Assembly (NCBI GenBank): GCA_902625125.1
Contig: CACOAB010000007.1
Location: 1 to 33,562, forward strand
Reading direction: 5' to 3'
DNA: 33,562 nt
From: an uncultured Pelagibacteraceae bacterium
Lineage (GTDB): Bacteria; Pseudomonadota; Alphaproteobacteria; Pelagibacterales; Pelagibacteraceae
The notes under the pieces are model-generated. The model was not told the DNA's origin. It worked only from the letters and a program-made list of their open reading frames with translations, and searched no databases. Made by a program: the position numbers and the translations under genes. This document shows, one piece after another, positions 3,147 through 30,922 of the stretch; position 1 is the stretch's first letter, and every line of letters begins with the position of its first letter.

Positions 3147-3830
3147 ATGAAAAAAATTATACTTTCAATTGCATTTTTATTGCTAATTAAATCTCAATCT
3201 TTAGGCCATGTAGCTCACTATGCCAGTTATAATTATTTAGAATATGAATTATTTAGAAATAACAGTTCTATCGGTTATCACAAATATGATTTTGTAAGAG
3301 ACGGGGATAATCTCTCTATTATCAGTGAGGTAAGTTTTAAAATTACTAAATTAGGAGTAGATTTATATAAATATTTTGCGAAAAGTGAGGAAAACTACCA
3401 AAACGGTTTTTTTAAAAGTTATTCATCAAAAACAAAACAAAATAAAAAAGATAGATATGTTAACATTGATTTAGACGAAAATAATGATCACTTAATTATC
3501 GACGGATCTTCATATAAAGGCAAAGCCAATAAAGAATTTATAGTTGGTACTTGGTGGAATCATGAAATTATTCAAGCAAAAGCACAAATAAGTGGGATTT
3601 CGGGAAGGATAATTGACCAAACTGTTACATTTATTGGCAAAGAAAATATAAAAATTGGTGAAAAAACTTACAAAACATTACGTTTTAATTTTAAATCTTC
3701 TGATGAAAGTCTTCCTGACAGTAAAAAATTAAATACTGATATTTGGTATGAGGAGGGAACTTATTTGTGGGTAAAAGCTGCCTTTGAAAAGACTGGTTAT
3801 TGGGAATATAGGATTAAAAAAGTAAATTAA
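3147..3830 (+). CDS. Secreted DUF6134-like protein of unknown function
   Basis: A 227-residue protein with a clear N-terminal signal sequence (two lysines, then a hydrophobic stretch at about residues 4-19, probable cleavage after SLG or nearby). The mature part is predicted to be rich in beta strands: it begins YLEYELFRNNSSIGYHKYDF and contains several alternating hydrophobic/polar stretches and a WYEEGTYLWVKAAFEKTGYWEYR end. The pattern of 'Y-x-V/L-x-G-x-x-I-G-xx-x-x-x-F' plus an aromatic C-terminus resembles DUF6134 proteins, small periplasmic or outer-membrane-associated proteins of unknown role; this assignment is from memory of the family pattern. It is divergent from cysK with only 12 bp between start codons, so its promoter must lie within cysK or it is transcribed with a very short leader. 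Confidence 0.65.
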   Translation: MKKIILSIAFLLLIKSQSLGHVAHYASYNYLEYELFRNNSSIGYHKYDFVRDGDNLSIISEVSFKITKLGVDLYKYFAKSEENYQNGFFKSYSSKTKQNKKDRYVNIDLDENNDHLIIDGSSYKGKANKEFIVGTWWNHEIIQAKAQISGISGRIIDQTVTFIGKENIKIGEKTYKTLRFNFKSSDESLPDSKKLNTDIWYEEGTYLWVKAAFEKTGYWEYRIKKVN

Positions 3831-4339: not shown

Positions 4340-4415
4340 TGGCTCCTCGGGCAGGACTCGAACCTGCGACCAATTGATTAACAGTCAACTGCTCTACCAA
4401 CTGAGCTACCGAGGA
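4340..4415 (-). tRNA. tRNA-Asn (anticodon GTT), CCA encoded
   Basis: The reverse strand folds as a complete cloverleaf. The acceptor is TCCTCGG with CCGAGGA, the D arm is GCTC-AGTTGGTA-GAGC, and the anticodon stem GTTGA/TCAAT encloses loop CTGTTAA (anticodon GTT). The T arm is GCAGG-TTCGAGT-CCTGC, with discriminator G and an encoded CCA at 4340-4342. The anticodon loop has U33-G34-U35, the sequence recognised by tRNA-guanine transglycosylase, so it is a potential substrate of the Tgt encoded at 29807. Confidence 0.97.
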
Positions 4416-22100: not shown

Positions 22101-22703
22101 TTAGTAAAGATTTTGAGCTGCAACCATCGATAGTAACATTGGAAGAGATAAAAGGGTATTAGTTCTAGAAAATAACATTGCAGTTTTAGCCGATGCAGTT
22201 TTTTCTTCAGGAGCACATTCTACTATACCAAGAGCTTTTTTTTGGTTCGGCCAAATTACGAACCAAACATTATAAGCCATTATTAAACCCAACCACATTC
22301 CAATACCAATTGCTGTATTTTTTCCGCCAGAGCCGTCTAGCCCAAGGATCATGGCACTATGAACATATCCATTAATCCAGGCTAACATTAAACCGGATAA
22401 TACTGTAACTGCAGCAGCCCATCTAAAATAGAAGAGAGCTGCAGGAGCTATAACTTTGCCAATAGCTGGTTTTTGTTCGTCCGGAATTTTAGGCATGTTT
22501 GGAATTTGAACAAAATTAAAGTACCATAATAAACCGATCCACATGATTGCTACGACAACATGAATAAACCTGAACAACCAGCTCCAAAAAAGAGTGTCAA
22601 AAGTAAAGCCATCACCAAAAAAGTGTAAGCCTAAAAATAGCAAAATTGCTATTCCGAGTGAAAAGTGAACTGTTTTTGATAATGATTGCAATACACTTGT
22701 CAT
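22101..22703 (-). CDS. PuuD-like (urate oxidase N-terminal family) membrane protein without cytochrome domain
   Basis: A 200-residue membrane protein with about five or six hydrophobic segments and sequence features of the Urate_ox_N/PuuD family: FLGLHFFGDGFTFDTLFWSWLFRFIHVVVAIMWIGLLWYFNFVQIPNMP, then FRWAAAVTVLSGLMLAW and MWLGLIMAYNVWFVIWPNQKKALG. Characterised PuuD urate hydroxylases of Agrobacterium type are about 400 residues with a C-terminal cytochrome c domain; that domain and its CxxCH motif are absent here. Several histidines remain in the membrane and could bind haem. A urate role is therefore uncertain. No other purine-degradation genes are near. It is convergent with secF (2 bp gap) and upstream of it is uvrA. 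Confidence 0.7.
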   Translation of the reverse strand: MTSVLQSLSKTVHFSLGIAILLFLGLHFFGDGFTFDTLFWSWLFRFIHVVVAIMWIGLLWYFNFVQIPNMPKIPDEQKPAIGKVIAPAALFYFRWAAAVTVLSGLMLAWINGYVHSAMILGLDGSGGKNTAIGIGMWLGLIMAYNVWFVIWPNQKKALGIVECAPEEKTASAKTAMLFSRTNTLLSLPMLLSMVAAQNLY

Positions 22704-26176: not shown

Positions 26177-28750
26177 ATGGAAAAAAATATCCTAGAGAAT
26201 AATAAATCTTTCAAACCTATTTTTGTACAAGATGAGATGAGCTCATCTTACCTATCTTACGCTATGAGCGTAATAGTTAGCAGAGCTCTTCCTGATGTAA
26301 GAGATGGTTTGAAACCAGTGCATAGAAGAATAATTTATGCAATGTATAAAGGAGGCTATGATTGGTCAAAACCCTTTAGAAAATCGGCTCGTATAGTAGG
26401 AGATGTTATAGGTAAATATCATCCTCATGGTGATCAATCTGTTTACGACGCATTAGTAAGATTAGTTCAGGATTTTTCAATGAGAGTGCCTTTAATCACA
26501 GGCCAAGGTAATTTCGGTTCTATTGACGGAGACCCCCCAGCTGCCATGAGATATACTGAAACTAAATTAGGTAGAATTGCACAATTCTTGACAGAGGATT
26601 TAGAAAAAAACACGGTTAATTATAGAAGCAATTATGATGAAACAGAAAAAGAGCCAGAAGTTTTACCTTCGCAGTACCCAAATATATTAGTTAATGGAGC
26701 CGGCGGTATCGCAGTAGGAATGGCAACAAGTATTCCTCCACATAACTTAGGTGAAGTTATTGACGGAACAATAGCTTATATAAACAATAAAGATATTACG
26801 ATCACGCAGTTGATGAAACATGTTCCAGGTCCGGATTTTCCAACAGGAGGCATTATTATAGGAAAAGATATTATTAAACAGGGATATAACAAAGGAAGGG
26901 GCTCTTTTAAAATTAGAGGTGAAATCGATTTAGAAGAAAAAAAAGGTGGCAGAGAGACACTAATTATAAAATCCATACCTTATCAGGTTAATAAATCTAT
27001 TTTAATTGAAAAAATTGCTCAACTTGTAAGAGATAAAAAGATCGAGGGAATAAGAGATATCAGAGACGAGTCAAACAGAGAGGGAATTCGTGTAGTTATT
27101 GAGTTAAGGAAAGGAATTGAACCTGAAACAATTAGAAGGCAATTATTTAAACTTACAAATATTGAAAGTTCTTTTGGATTTAATACTTTAGCAATTGTAA
27201 ACAACAAGCCAAAAATTTTAAACTTAAAAGAATTCATTTCTGAATTTTTAAAATTCCGAGAAGACACTGTTATTAAAAGGGTAAAATTTGATTTAAAAAA
27301 AGCAGAAGAAAGAGCTCATATTTTAATCGGTTTAGCTACAGCTGTTGAAAATATAGATGAGGTAATTAAGATAATAAAAAATTCTAAAGATTCAGAAACT
27401 GCGAAAAAGAATTTACTTTCAAAAAAGTGGAAAATTAAAAAAAGTGCAAAGTTAATTGCTCTAATAGAAAAAAAGAAAAATTTAACTAATTATTCCTTAT
27501 CTGAAAATCAAGTCAACGCAATATTAGAATTGAGATTACAAAAATTAACCGCTTATGGAATAGGAGAAATTGAATCAGAAATAAGTAAATTATCTGAGAT
27601 GATCATTGAGTTTAATAGAATCATTGGTTCAAAAAAAGCATTATACAAATTAATTATTGAGGAATTAGAGAACATTAAAGATAAATTTGCTTCACCAAGA
27701 AAAACTAAGATTATTGATGCGGTGCTCAATTATAATATAGAGGAAACAATCCAAAAAGAGTCAGTGGTAATAAGTATTACCAATCAAGGTTATATAAAAC
27801 GTAGTCCGCTCAGTTCTTTAAAGGCTCAAAAAAGAGGTGGAAAGGGGAAAACAGGAATCTCAACAAGAGAGGAGGACTTTGTCGTTCAAATATTTACCGC
27901 TAATACTCATACGCCCGTTTTATTTTTCTCTACGCAAGGATTAGTTTATAAAATTAAAGCACATAAAATTCCTGAGGGTACCTCTGCTTCTAAGGGCAAA
28001 TCTATATTCAATATTTTACCTCTTAAAAGTCATCATTCTATTAGCTCAATAATGCCTTTACCTGAAGATGAGACAGAATGGAAAAATTTAATGGTAATTT
28101 TTGCTACAGCCAAAGGCAATATAAGAAAAAACACTTTAGAGGATTTTGTAAATATCAATAATAGTGGAAAGATAGCAATGAAATTAGATCAAGATGATAG
28201 AATTATAGGAGTTAAAATTTGTAGAGAAGATCAAGATATTTTATTAAGCACCCAATTTGGTAAATGTATAAGATTTAAATCTAAAAAACTGAGATTATTT
28301 AAAGGTAGAGCTTCTAAGGGCATAAAGGGAATTCAATTAAATGATAAAGATAAAGTGATATCGGTATCGATTCTGGATAATAGTAAAATTGACCCTAAAA
28401 CTATCGATAAAGATAAAAAAATAAAAAATGCAGTAAATAAATTTATTTTATCAGTATCAGAAAATGGATATGGAAAAAGATCATCATATTTAGACTACAG
28501 AGTGACAAATAGAGGAGGAAAAGGAATTATTGGAATTATAAATTCACCAAGAAATGGAAATATATCCTCATCTTTAGTAGTAAGTGAAACTGATGAAATT
28601 ATTTTATCGACAGACAAAGGCAGTATTATGCGTTGTGCTGTTAAAGAAATTAGAGTTGCGGGTCGTAATACGCAAGGTGTTAGGATTAAAAAATTATCTG
28701 GTAGCGAAAAAGTTGTTTCTGTGATTAAAATTGAAGACAACATACAATAA
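26177..28750 (+). CDS. gyrA: DNA gyrase subunit A
   Basis: Breakage-reunion subunit of the type IIA topoisomerase that introduces negative supercoils. The 857 residues show the winged-helix domain with the catalytic tyrosine Y126 in PPAAMRYTE, the GyrA box QKRGGKGKTG (551-560) that distinguishes gyrase from topoisomerase IV, and six-blade beta-pinwheel repeats in the C-terminal domain. The quinolone-determining region reads HPHGDQSVYDAL; the Gln where E. coli has Ser83 is the usual alphaproteobacterial state as I recall. No acidic C-terminal tail is present. It lies 6 bp after ssb and 4 bp before coaD. Confidence 0.97.
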   Translation: MEKNILENNKSFKPIFVQDEMSSSYLSYAMSVIVSRALPDVRDGLKPVHRRIIYAMYKGGYDWSKPFRKSARIVGDVIGKYHPHGDQSVYDALVRLVQDFSMRVPLITGQGNFGSIDGDPPAAMRYTETKLGRIAQFLTEDLEKNTVNYRSNYDETEKEPEVLPSQYPNILVNGAGGIAVGMATSIPPHNLGEVIDGTIAYINNKDITITQLMKHVPGPDFPTGGIIIGKDIIKQGYNKGRGSFKIRGEIDLEEKKGGRETLIIKSIPYQVNKSILIEKIAQLVRDKKIEGIRDIRDESNREGIRVVIELRKGIEPETIRRQLFKLTNIESSFGFNTLAIVNNKPKILNLKEFISEFLKFREDTVIKRVKFDLKKAEERAHILIGLATAVENIDEVIKIIKNSKDSETAKKNLLSKKWKIKKSAKLIALIEKKKNLTNYSLSENQVNAILELRLQKLTAYGIGEIESEISKLSEMIIEFNRIIGSKKALYKLIIEELENIKDKFASPRKTKIIDAVLNYNIEETIQKESVVISITNQGYIKRSPLSSLKAQKRGGKGKTGISTREEDFVVQIFTANTHTPVLFFSTQGLVYKIKAHKIPEGTSASKGKSIFNILPLKSHHSISSIMPLPEDETEWKNLMVIFATAKGNIRKNTLEDFVNINNSGKIAMKLDQDDRIIGVKICREDQDILLSTQFGKCIRFKSKKLRLFKGRASKGIKGIQLNDKDKVISVSILDNSKIDPKTIDKDKKIKNAVNKFILSVSENGYGKRSSYLDYRVTNRGGKGIIGIINSPRNGNISSSLVVSETDEIILSTDKGSIMRCAVKEIRVAGRNTQGVRIKKLSGSEKVVSVIKIEDNIQ

Positions 28751-28754
28751 GAAT

Positions 28755-29243
28755 ATGAACACAGCTATTTATCCAGGCACTTTTGACCCTATTACATATG
28801 GGCACATTGATGTAATCAAAAAATCACTAAAAGTTTTTGATAGACTAATTGTAGCCACAACAGATAATATTAATAAAAATTACCATTTTTCTATAGAAGA
28901 TAGATTAAGTATAATTAAAAATTCATTATTCAAAGACCTTAAATTCAGTAAAAGTAAAATCAAAGTTGTCCCTTTTGATGTTCTAACTATTGACTTATGT
29001 AAAAAATATAAAGCAGGGACGATAATAAGAGGATTAAGAGCAGTTTCTGATTTTGAGTATGAATTTCAGCTAGCTGGCATGAATAAAAAATTAAATTCTA
29101 AGATTGAAACAATGTTCTTAATGTCCGACGTCGAAAATCAAATTATTTCATCAAAATTTGTTAAAGAGATTGCAAGTTTAGGTGGTAATATAGATAGATT
29201 TGTGACTAGATCGACAGTAAAATTACTAAAAAATAAAATTTAA
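28755..29243 (+). CDS. coaD: Phosphopantetheine adenylyltransferase
   Basis: Catalyses the fourth, adenylyl-transfer step of coenzyme A synthesis from 4'-phosphopantetheine and ATP. With the start at 28755 (MNTAIYPGTFDPITYGHID) it is 162 residues, normal length; the in-frame ATG 24 bp upstream lies inside gyrA and is rejected. It has the nucleotidyltransferase motif TFDPITYGH (T/HxGH), RGLRAVSDFEYE and the terminal ISSKFVKEIASLGG. The 1 bp overlap with the next gene (TAATG) marks one operon: gyrA-coaD-ppi-tgt. Confidence 0.96.
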   Translation: MNTAIYPGTFDPITYGHIDVIKKSLKVFDRLIVATTDNINKNYHFSIEDRLSIIKNSLFKDLKFSKSKIKVVPFDVLTIDLCKKYKAGTIIRGLRAVSDFEYEFQLAGMNKKLNSKIETMFLMSDVENQIISSKFVKEIASLGGNIDRFVTRSTVKLLKNKI

Positions 29244-29800
29244 TGAAAAAAAATATCTATTTATTTATCCTATTTTTTAGTTTATTAACTACAAATATTT
29301 TCGCTCAAAATAATCTTATGATTTTAAAACTAACTTACGGTGATGTTGAAATAGAGCTCTATCCCGAGAAAGCTCCAAACCACGTAAAAAGATTTAAAGA
29401 ATTAGCAAATAGCGGAAAATACGATGGAGTGGTTTTTCACAGAGTTATAGAAGGTTTTATGGCTCAGACTGGAGATGTAAAATTTGGAAATTCAAATACT
29501 TCAGATTTTAATTTGTCATTGGCTGGCACAGGTGGCTCTGAGTTGCCTAATGTTAAAGCTGAATTCACAGATATAGCGCATACAAGAGGAATTCTTTCGG
29601 CTGCACGCTCAGCGGATCCTGATAGTGCAAATAGTCAATTTTTTATTTGCTATGATTCTGCTCCACATTTAGACAGACAATACTCAGCTTTTGGAAAAGT
29701 TATTAAAGGAATGGAATTTGTAGATATGATAAAAAAAGGCGATCCAAATAGTGGAGCTGTACAAGAACCTGATAAAATAATCTCTATAAAATCAAAATAA
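29243..29800 (+). CDS. Exported cyclophilin-type peptidyl-prolyl cis-trans isomerase
   Basis: Folding helper acting on proline bonds in the periplasm. The 185 residues have a signal peptide (MKKNIYLFILFFSLLTTNIFA, cleavage about after residue 21), then the cyclophilin core: YDGVVFHRVIEGFMAQTGD with the catalytic arginine, ILSAARSADPDSANSQFFI and YSAFGKVIKGMEFVD. It is one of the short bacterial cyclophilins like PpiA/PpiB; I leave the symbol open because both names are used in this locus. Many Alphaproteobacteria have a second ppi gene and queA before tgt. Here only this gene is present and tgt follows after 6 bp. Confidence 0.93.
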   Translation: MKKNIYLFILFFSLLTTNIFAQNNLMILKLTYGDVEIELYPEKAPNHVKRFKELANSGKYDGVVFHRVIEGFMAQTGDVKFGNSNTSDFNLSLAGTGGSELPNVKAEFTDIAHTRGILSAARSADPDSANSQFFICYDSAPHLDRQYSAFGKVIKGMEFVDMIKKGDPNSGAVQEPDKIISIKSK

Positions 29801-29806
29801 TTTTTA

Positions 29807-30922
29807 ATGTTAAGTAAAGAATTTTCTTTTGAGTTAATCACTCAAGATGACAAAGCTAGACTTGGAAAAATTCATACACAAAGAGGTTCAATAGATACAC
29901 CTGCGTTTATGCCAGTCGGCACTCAAGGAACTGTTAAAGGAGTTTTTACTGACGATATCTTAAAAACTAATACTCAAATTATTTTAGGCAACACTTATCA
30001 TTTATTACTTAGACCCGGGATAAAAACGCTTAACGAATTCAATGGTCTTCATAATTTTATGAATTGGAAAAAACCAATATTAACTGACTCTGGTGGATAT
30101 CAGATTATGTCTTTATCAAAATTTAATAAAATCGATTTAAAAATCGGTGCTATTTTCAGTTCGCATTTGGATGGGAAAAAAATAATTTTAAGTCCAGAAA
30201 AAAGTATTCAAGTTCAAAAATCTATTAATTCTGACATCTTGATGGTCTTAGATGAATGTCCTAAACTTACGTCTGATAAAAAAATCTTATCAAAAGCAAT
30301 AGATGTTTCAACAAATTGGGCCAAGAGAAGTAAGATCGAGTTTGGAAATATTAAGTCAAAAGCTTTATTTGGAATTGTTCAAGGTGGATTATTTAAAGAT
30401 TTAAGAATTGAGAGCATTGAAAAATTAATAGATATAAATTTCAGTGGCTATGCAATGGGTGGATTAGCAGTTGGTGAAAATCAATCAGATATGTTTAAGA
30501 TTTTGAGTGAAACTACAAATTATCTTCCTAAAAACAAACCAAGATATCTTATGGGCGTTGGTACACCATCTGATATATTGGGCGCAGTCAACGAGGGAAT
30601 AGATATGTTTGATTGTGTTATGCCAACTAGATCTGGAAGAACGGGTCTGGCTTTTACATGGCAAGGTAAGATCAATTTGAAAAATTCAAAATATCAAAAT
30701 GACAAGTCTCCTTTAGATGAAAATTGCACAATTCGAGACTTAAATAGATATTCAAAAAGTTATTTAAATCATCTTATAAAATCTAACGAAATGATGGCCT
30801 CTATGCTAATTTCTCTACATAATATATATTTTTATCAACAATTTATGCGCGAAATTCAAAAAAATATTCATAATGGCACATTTCAATTATTTTATAAAAA
30901 ATATATAAATTTGTTCGATTAA
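29807..30922 (+). CDS. tgt: tRNA-guanine transglycosylase with altered zinc site
   Basis: Exchanges guanine 34 for a queuine precursor in tRNAs with GUN anticodons (Asn, Asp, His, Tyr). At 371 residues it has normal length. Catalytic residues are kept: D94 (TDSGGYQIMS) and D269 (MFDCVMPTR), with GGLAVGE and the start typical. The structural zinc site is not: E. coli Tgt has C302, C304, C307 and H333. Here C307 and H338 keep the same 31-residue spacing, but the positions of C304 and C307 are I309 and L312 (sequence DENCTIRDLNRYSKSYL). The frame is continuous and the length conserved, so it is not a simple frameshift. queA is also missing from its usual place just upstream. The tRNA-Asn in this window has the target U33-G34-U35. 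Confidence 0.93.
   Translation: MLSKEFSFELITQDDKARLGKIHTQRGSIDTPAFMPVGTQGTVKGVFTDDILKTNTQIILGNTYHLLLRPGIKTLNEFNGLHNFMNWKKPILTDSGGYQIMSLSKFNKIDLKIGAIFSSHLDGKKIILSPEKSIQVQKSINSDILMVLDECPKLTSDKKILSKAIDVSTNWAKRSKIEFGNIKSKALFGIVQGGLFKDLRIESIEKLIDINFSGYAMGGLAVGENQSDMFKILSETTNYLPKNKPRYLMGVGTPSDILGAVNEGIDMFDCVMPTRSGRTGLAFTWQGKINLKNSKYQNDKSPLDENCTIRDLNRYSKSYLNHLIKSNEMMASMLISLHNIYFYQQFMREIQKNIHNGTFQLFYKKYINLFD

Follow-up and report, generated by a model that had tools for sequence, protein, structure and literature searches.

The window, a 33,562-nucleotide stretch of DNA from an uncultured Pelagibacteraceae bacterium of the SAR11 group, carries a tgt gene whose product, a tRNA guanosine(34) transglycosylase (Tgt), lacks an intact zinc site. 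This raises the questions of whether the protein is still an enzyme, whether it has dispensed with the metal altogether, and what brought about the change.

The Tgt of the window and its zinc ligand positions

In canonical Tgt, the role of zinc is to fasten a small subdomain, like a staple, to the barrel close to the dimer interface; the metal is not directly involved in base exchange. Mutants of the E. coli enzyme altered at the ligands are said to have been found impaired by Chong in 1995. Passages of published work describe TGT as requiring zinc (PMC9508795), the zinc domain as a hallmark of TGT (PMC6165067) and the zinc residues as highly conserved (PMC4425180); the first two of these statements count against a zinc-free reading, as do the E. 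coli mutants. Our search of the open-licence PubMed Central literature returned no report of a zinc-free TGT.

The tgt gene lies at positions 29807 to 30922 of the forward strand and is a complete open reading frame (ORF) of 371 amino acids. Its product scored 470 bits against the bacterial Tgt equivalog model TIGR00430, whose curated cut-off is 306.75, and 479 bits against PF01702, and it was the sole match in its own genome (748 kb in 29 contigs, 73% complete). Aligned to the TGT of Zymomonas mobilis, which has C318-x-C320-x2-C323 and H349, the window protein shows Cys-Ile-Leu-His at the ligand positions instead of the canonical Cys-Cys-Cys-His, and it thus falls outside the zinc-metalloprotein form of Tgt (Cys-x-Cys-x2-Cys ... 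His). The former CxCxxC loop, located by sequence and alignment, spans 30725 to 30742 on the forward strand, with codons for Cys307 at 30725-30727, Ile309 at 30731-30733 and Leu312 at 30740-30742. His338, the fourth ligand position, aligns at 30818 to 30820 on the same strand. The alignment bears out the proposal, made from the sequence alone, that Ile309 and Leu312 replace two of the zinc cysteines, and the 31-residue spacing given for Cys307 and His338 was right.

The window protein shares with Z. mobilis TGT the catalytic Asp102 and Asp280, Asp156, Gln203, the GGLAV pocket and the dimer residues Tyr330, His333 and Glu339 (Z. mobilis numbers). The alignment places catalytic Asp94 (Z. mobilis D102) at 30086 to 30088 and the nucleophile Asp269 (D280) at 30611 to 30613, both on the forward strand. 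The substrate pocket GGLAVG is at 30458 to 30475 of that strand; parts of PMC11570991 describe this motif as of the preQ1 type, and the counterparts of Asp156 and Gln203 that go with such a pocket are also present. Tyr319, His322 and Glu328 correspond to the homodimer residues, from which a dimer is predicted. An expected tRNA substrate is encoded in the window, where ARAGORN detected a tRNA-Asn(GTT) gene at 4340 to 4415 of the reverse strand. Upstream of tgt, at 28731 to 29800 of the forward strand, are ORFs that we named by eye as coaD-like and peptidylprolyl-isomerase-like (ppi-like), with no queA there. Elsewhere in the window, the ORFs at 3147-3827 (forward strand, 227 residues) and 22104-22703 (reverse strand, 200 residues) had no NCBIfam match at 1e-5.

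The zinc site is lost throughout the SAR11 sequences

We gathered Tgt sequences from the genus, order and class of the window and from named genomes, and we read the zinc site from a joint alignment. After removal of a duplicate of the window, it held 285 rows, comprising 128 from SAR11, 66 others without an intact site and 91 with an intact site. The SAR11 rows represent 125 distinct sequences from two families; some are partial, and eight named records may repeat other genomes of the set. In the order Pelagibacterales, tgt was matched in 348 of 397 searched genomes, part of which were read. Four sequences with an intact site and an indel after the motif (L073, L081, L196 and L202) were scored by motif search, and L179 was read as S-N-C-H.

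None of the 128 SAR11 rows had an intact site. Comparison with relatives had been set in advance as the test for a local error, and the absence of CxCxxC from every SAR11 row shows that the window is not a local case. The fragmentary state of the window genome, 73% complete in 29 contigs, might have pointed to a sequencing, assembly or annotation error. Such an error is refuted, its probability being next to nil, because the 125 distinct SAR11 sequences stem from many different assemblies; HIMB058, for one, has a Tgt that is 90% identical to that of the window and shows the same four residues at the ligand positions.

Two ligands were kept in 90 SAR11 rows, one in 29 and none in 9. In the genus of the window (64 rows), C-I-L-H occurred 35 times, C-I-L-N 12 times and C-L-L-H 8 times, among others. 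In g3, a large genus with 26 rows, the patterns included C-N-L-H, C-K-L-H and V-K-L-N; four further genera (g2, g4, g5 and g8; 9 rows) had V-C-S-H or I-C-S-H, and all 14 rows of the second SAR11 family, f2, had S-N-C-H. Since the window and 89 other rows retain two of the four ligands, the protein might still bind metal through Cys307, His338 and other residues, or bind a metal other than zinc. However, the retained pair differs by lineage: the His is accompanied by the first Cys in most rows from the genus of the window, by the second Cys in g2, g4, g5 and g8, and by the third Cys in f2. Relatives also lose the retained ligands, down to none in nine rows, and no new Cys/His cluster appeared there when these two residue types were examined. 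In the segment 296-350 of these nine, the sole Cys or His residues were the invariant His322, His324 in three rows and Cys341 in one. We consider continued metal binding improbable. The preserved Cys-His spacing, to which the sequence-only reading drew attention, is no sign of a remaining metal site, because another residue stands in place of the first Cys in 42 of the 128 rows, and Asn in place of the His in 28; a residual site formed by the kept Cys and His was rejected on the same ground, both residues being freely lost in relatives.

Position 312 is Leu in every row of the window's genus, while positions 305, 306, 308 and 311 are highly variable. This invariance among varying neighbours suggests that Leu312 is a packing residue.

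The gene itself was present in 141 of 151 near-complete, low-contamination Pelagibacterales genomes. As the other ten had no match, tgt may be lost now and then in the order.

SAR11 Tgt retains the features of an enzyme under selection

The nucleophile Asp269 was Asp in all 128 SAR11 rows, Asp94 in 127 with a gap in the remaining one, and GGLAV was identical in all 128. The counterparts of D156, C158, Q203, G229-V233, M260, G261, D280, C281, R286, R289, Y330, H333 and E339 were likewise invariant, and those of K52, D102 and S103 varied only by gaps. In window numbering, Asp94, Asp149, Asp269, Gln192, GGLAV, Tyr319, His322 and Glu328 are thus constant in SAR11 apart from gaps, in agreement with the earlier statement that the catalytic aspartates are intact. 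The Y106 counterpart was Tyr in 77 rows and Phe in 51, both of which also occur in zinc-bearing Tgts. The active-site, pocket and dimer residues give no support to the other suggestion of the sequence-only reading, an altered enzyme.

SAR11 Tgt is under purifying selection. Among 2016 pairs in the genus of the window, 744 had a dS of 0.05-1.5, and their median dN/dS was 0.096; the eight pairs of lowest dS that include the window gave 0.058 to 0.166. These values come from a Nei-Gojobori script, in which synonymous distances near 1 are rough.

The AlphaFold model of the window Tgt had a mean pLDDT of 91.6, with residues 301-340 at 92-96 in blocks of ten. Over the same region the model of L065, which bears the zinc site, was at 93-97, and the helices were nearly identical. 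The best Foldseek match of the window model in the PDB was Z. mobilis TGT (TM 0.94, rmsd 1.4); the top three matches, among its entries 1ozm, 1q2r, 1efz and others, had a like fold, with TM 0.94-0.96 and 48-49% identity. The confident metal-free model lends weak support to a zinc-free fold, because the underlying alignment is rich in zinc-bearing homologues and AlphaFold reproduces family folds.

Salvaged preQ1 as the probable substrate

We searched 24 genomes of the window's family for queuosine genes. Neither QueA nor QueG was found (0 of 24 each), and QueF had no match over its curated cut-off; the matches below it, in ORFs of about 200 residues, were taken for GTP cyclohydrolase I. QueC gave weak matches of at most 32.3 bits, many above the Pfam threshold of 22, whereas three outside genomes scored 205-222 bits; the weakly matching ORFs, of about 250-630 residues, were taken for other PP-loop enzymes. 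Judged by queA, queG, queF and queC, these genomes, of which that of the window is 73% complete, do not qualify as de novo makers of queuosine. The QPTR transporter (PF02592) was detected in all 24, in 4 of 4 genomes of f2, and so in all 28 SAR11 genomes. Passages of PMC11570991 propose preQ1 salvage for Pelagibacter, which has tgt and QPTR without the later enzymes. As queA and queG were not found and QPTR is present, the window Tgt most likely inserts salvaged preQ1, and its GGLAVG pocket would fit this base.

In f2 (G102, G104, G106 and G118), QueA was found in all four genomes, adjoining tgt, and QueG in three, with no QueF over the cut-off; this family would be expected to convert salvaged preQ1 all the way to queuosine. 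Since queA occurs in f2 as well as in three genomes without the site (G473, G606 and G720), loss of the zinc site and loss of the later queuosine steps are separate events.

Without queA, queG and queF, SAR11 Tgt may have little substrate. It could be decaying or have been put to another use, having ceased to modify tRNA, and be kept where the rest of the pathway has gone, as the gaps in the pathway of the window's family and the ten near-complete genomes lacking tgt might indicate. Yet tgt is retained in the other 141 of these genomes, its active-site, pocket and dimer residues are unchanged with a dN/dS near 0.1, QPTR accompanies it in every SAR11 genome examined for it, and f2 and the three site-free genomes just named keep queA. 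We regard decay or repurposing as quite unlikely.

The window very probably encodes a working, zinc-free Tgt in which the staple has been replaced by protein packing and which most likely inserts salvaged preQ1. We infer the absence of metal, the replacement by packing, the activity and dimeric state of the SAR11 protein, and preQ1 as its substrate. SAR11 would have given up the zinc staple, leaving the loop held by ordinary packing, after which nothing would have kept the other ligands from drifting. The enzyme would keep its usual dimer and exchange G34 of GUN tRNAs, preQ1 imported by QPTR being the likeliest base put in. A zinc-free fold, one of the possibilities first raised for this gene, gains support from the loss in every SAR11 row read, the ligand-free rows, the purifying selection and the confident model.

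Loss of the zinc site outside SAR11

All 43 named Hyphomicrobiales, including Rhizobium and Mesorhizobium, lacked the site, and 20 of them had S-C-A-N. Among 85 class-level rows outside SAR11 (25 loci and 60 fetched sequences, taken from the best-scoring among 347 matching genomes), 17 had no intact site, one of which, L207, misses the third Cys only. A second set of 20 class rows had 4 intact and 16 not. The other classes of the phylum, represented by 50 rows (30 best loci and 20 fetched), had 49 intact sites, and in the remaining row, L324, the frame is cut before the site. These outside rows are a non-random sample of score-ordered lists and hand-picked families and represent high-scoring Tgts of the class. 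The site had been called nearly universal in bacterial Tgt, which holds in the 50 rows from other classes of the phylum but not for Alphaproteobacteria.

Metal-poor ocean water had been offered as the cause, and the absence of an intact site from all SAR11 rows read would suit such an adaptation. It does not suit the 43 Hyphomicrobiales, many of whose genera are soil or plant bacteria, nor the marine SAR116 (L065) and Colwellia (L114 and L121), which keep the site; moreover, UvrA, which is also encoded in the window, still has four CxxC pairs. Ocean metal scarcity is therefore not supported, and we hold it to be an unlikely explanation. Because the site is also gone from rhizobia and related bacteria, zinc seems dispensable in Tgt, and an ocean shortage is not needed as an explanation.

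Over the 285 rows, four ligands were present in 91, three in 1, two in 101, one in 79 and none in 13. This distribution, with 193 rows at two or fewer, is as expected for a site that is valuable only when complete. A simpler account than metal scarcity would be that the staple is useful and not essential, that it becomes worthless as soon as one of the ligands has gone, and that its role passes to other packing. His is replaced by Asn at the fourth position in 39 of the 66 other site-free rows, as it is in 28 SAR11 rows, and this recurrence hints that Asn is a favoured replacement.

Comparison with Sinorhizobium meliloti and other known systems

The Tgt of Sinorhizobium meliloti strain Ak57 (L298, CP090106.1), 51% identical to that of the window, is also site-free, with Ser-Cys-Thr-Asn and thus one ligand of four; its ligand replacements are other than those of the window. 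It has GGLAVG, and coaD and ppi neighbours as in the window. The order there is coaD-ppi-ppi, an unlisted 368-codon ORF with a QueA-like start (by eye), then tgt, whereas in the window tgt follows the coaD-like and ppi-like ORFs without queA. Unlike the window's family, S. meliloti is a queuosine producer in its own right, with queA, queC and queF; genetic evidence from strain 1021 indicates that it requires tgt in vivo and that added preQ1 acts only where tgt is present, according to passages of PMC3568095. Assuming that strain 1021 has the same residues as Ak57, S. meliloti provides the best evidence that a one-ligand Tgt works in cells. The best PDB match of a Sinorhizobium Tgt, at 464 bits, was 1ozm, which Foldseek titles as a Z. 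mobilis entry; hence no structure of a nearer relative seems to have been solved. The 3.7-Mb record CP090106.1 is labelled as plasmid pSymB; as it carries coaD and tgt, this suggests a mislabelled chromosome.

The bTGT of Bartonella henselae resembles the window in having Tgt and QPTR without the enzymes from preQ1 to queuosine, and GGLAVG; parts of PMC11570991 group it with Pelagibacter as preQ1 salvagers. The comparison covers the genes and the pocket, and the words 'zinc' and 'cysteine' are absent from the main text of that paper. A precedent for zinc-bearing and zinc-free forms in one family is bacterial ribosomal protein S4, as described in PMC3087516; S4 differs in belonging to the ribosome rather than being an enzyme, and in its horizontal transfer.

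Number of losses and wider meaning

Gene trees were built without the zinc region from 175 of the 285 rows, with SAR11 reduced to 46 rows, for which ligand state was one ground of selection, and the named Hyphomicrobiales to 15 of 43. A second tree had 171 of these rows, L116, L145, L214 and L220 being left out; L116, from Halanaerobium, had grouped among SAR11 in the first tree, which we took for a long-branch effect. The intact/lost label changed 8 times on the 175-row tree (simple model) and 7 times on the 171-row tree (mixture model), and strongly supported branches force 3 and 2 changes, respectively. More than one change of the site state is supported, and the trees do not fix the exact count.

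In the mixture-model tree, SAR11 and family f25 formed one site-lost group of 48 rows. Parsimony on this tree had the first Cys disappear in the common ancestor of SAR11 and f25, which would make Cys307 of the window a regained residue; the second and third Cys were ambiguous. If no Cys was ever regained, SAR11 would have lost the site independently two or more times, because every one of the three Cys is still present in one branch or another. We lean on neither course, and a single loss at the root of SAR11 is only one possibility.

On balance we lean towards a broader interpretation, in which the zinc of Tgt is a dispensable staple that was discarded several times in Alphaproteobacteria by different routes, perhaps repeatedly within SAR11, and replaced by packing and often by a His-to-Asn change. 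SAR11 and Hyphomicrobiales would run zinc-free Tgt, and in most SAR11 it would be the last step, leaving tRNA with salvaged preQ1 and not queuosine. Tgt is a studied drug target for which zinc is described as needed. If true, natural zinc-free Tgts would mean that the enzyme can lose the site and still be maintained by selection, and they would supply a set of natural replacements for study. Zinc annotation would be affected if databases assign zinc to site-free Tgts, and in SAR11 the base at position 34 of tRNAs in some of the most abundant ocean bacteria becomes a testable question.

Phage-borne Tgts gave 20 records, all below 60% identity. The f25 sequences L132 and L135, which grouped with SAR11 in the mixture-model tree, come from the small genomes G618 and G487 and have L-C-S-H. 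In G618 (79% complete), QueA, QueG and QPTR were not found, QueC is present, and a QueF gene adjoins tgt; its pathway possibly ends at preQ1 made de novo.
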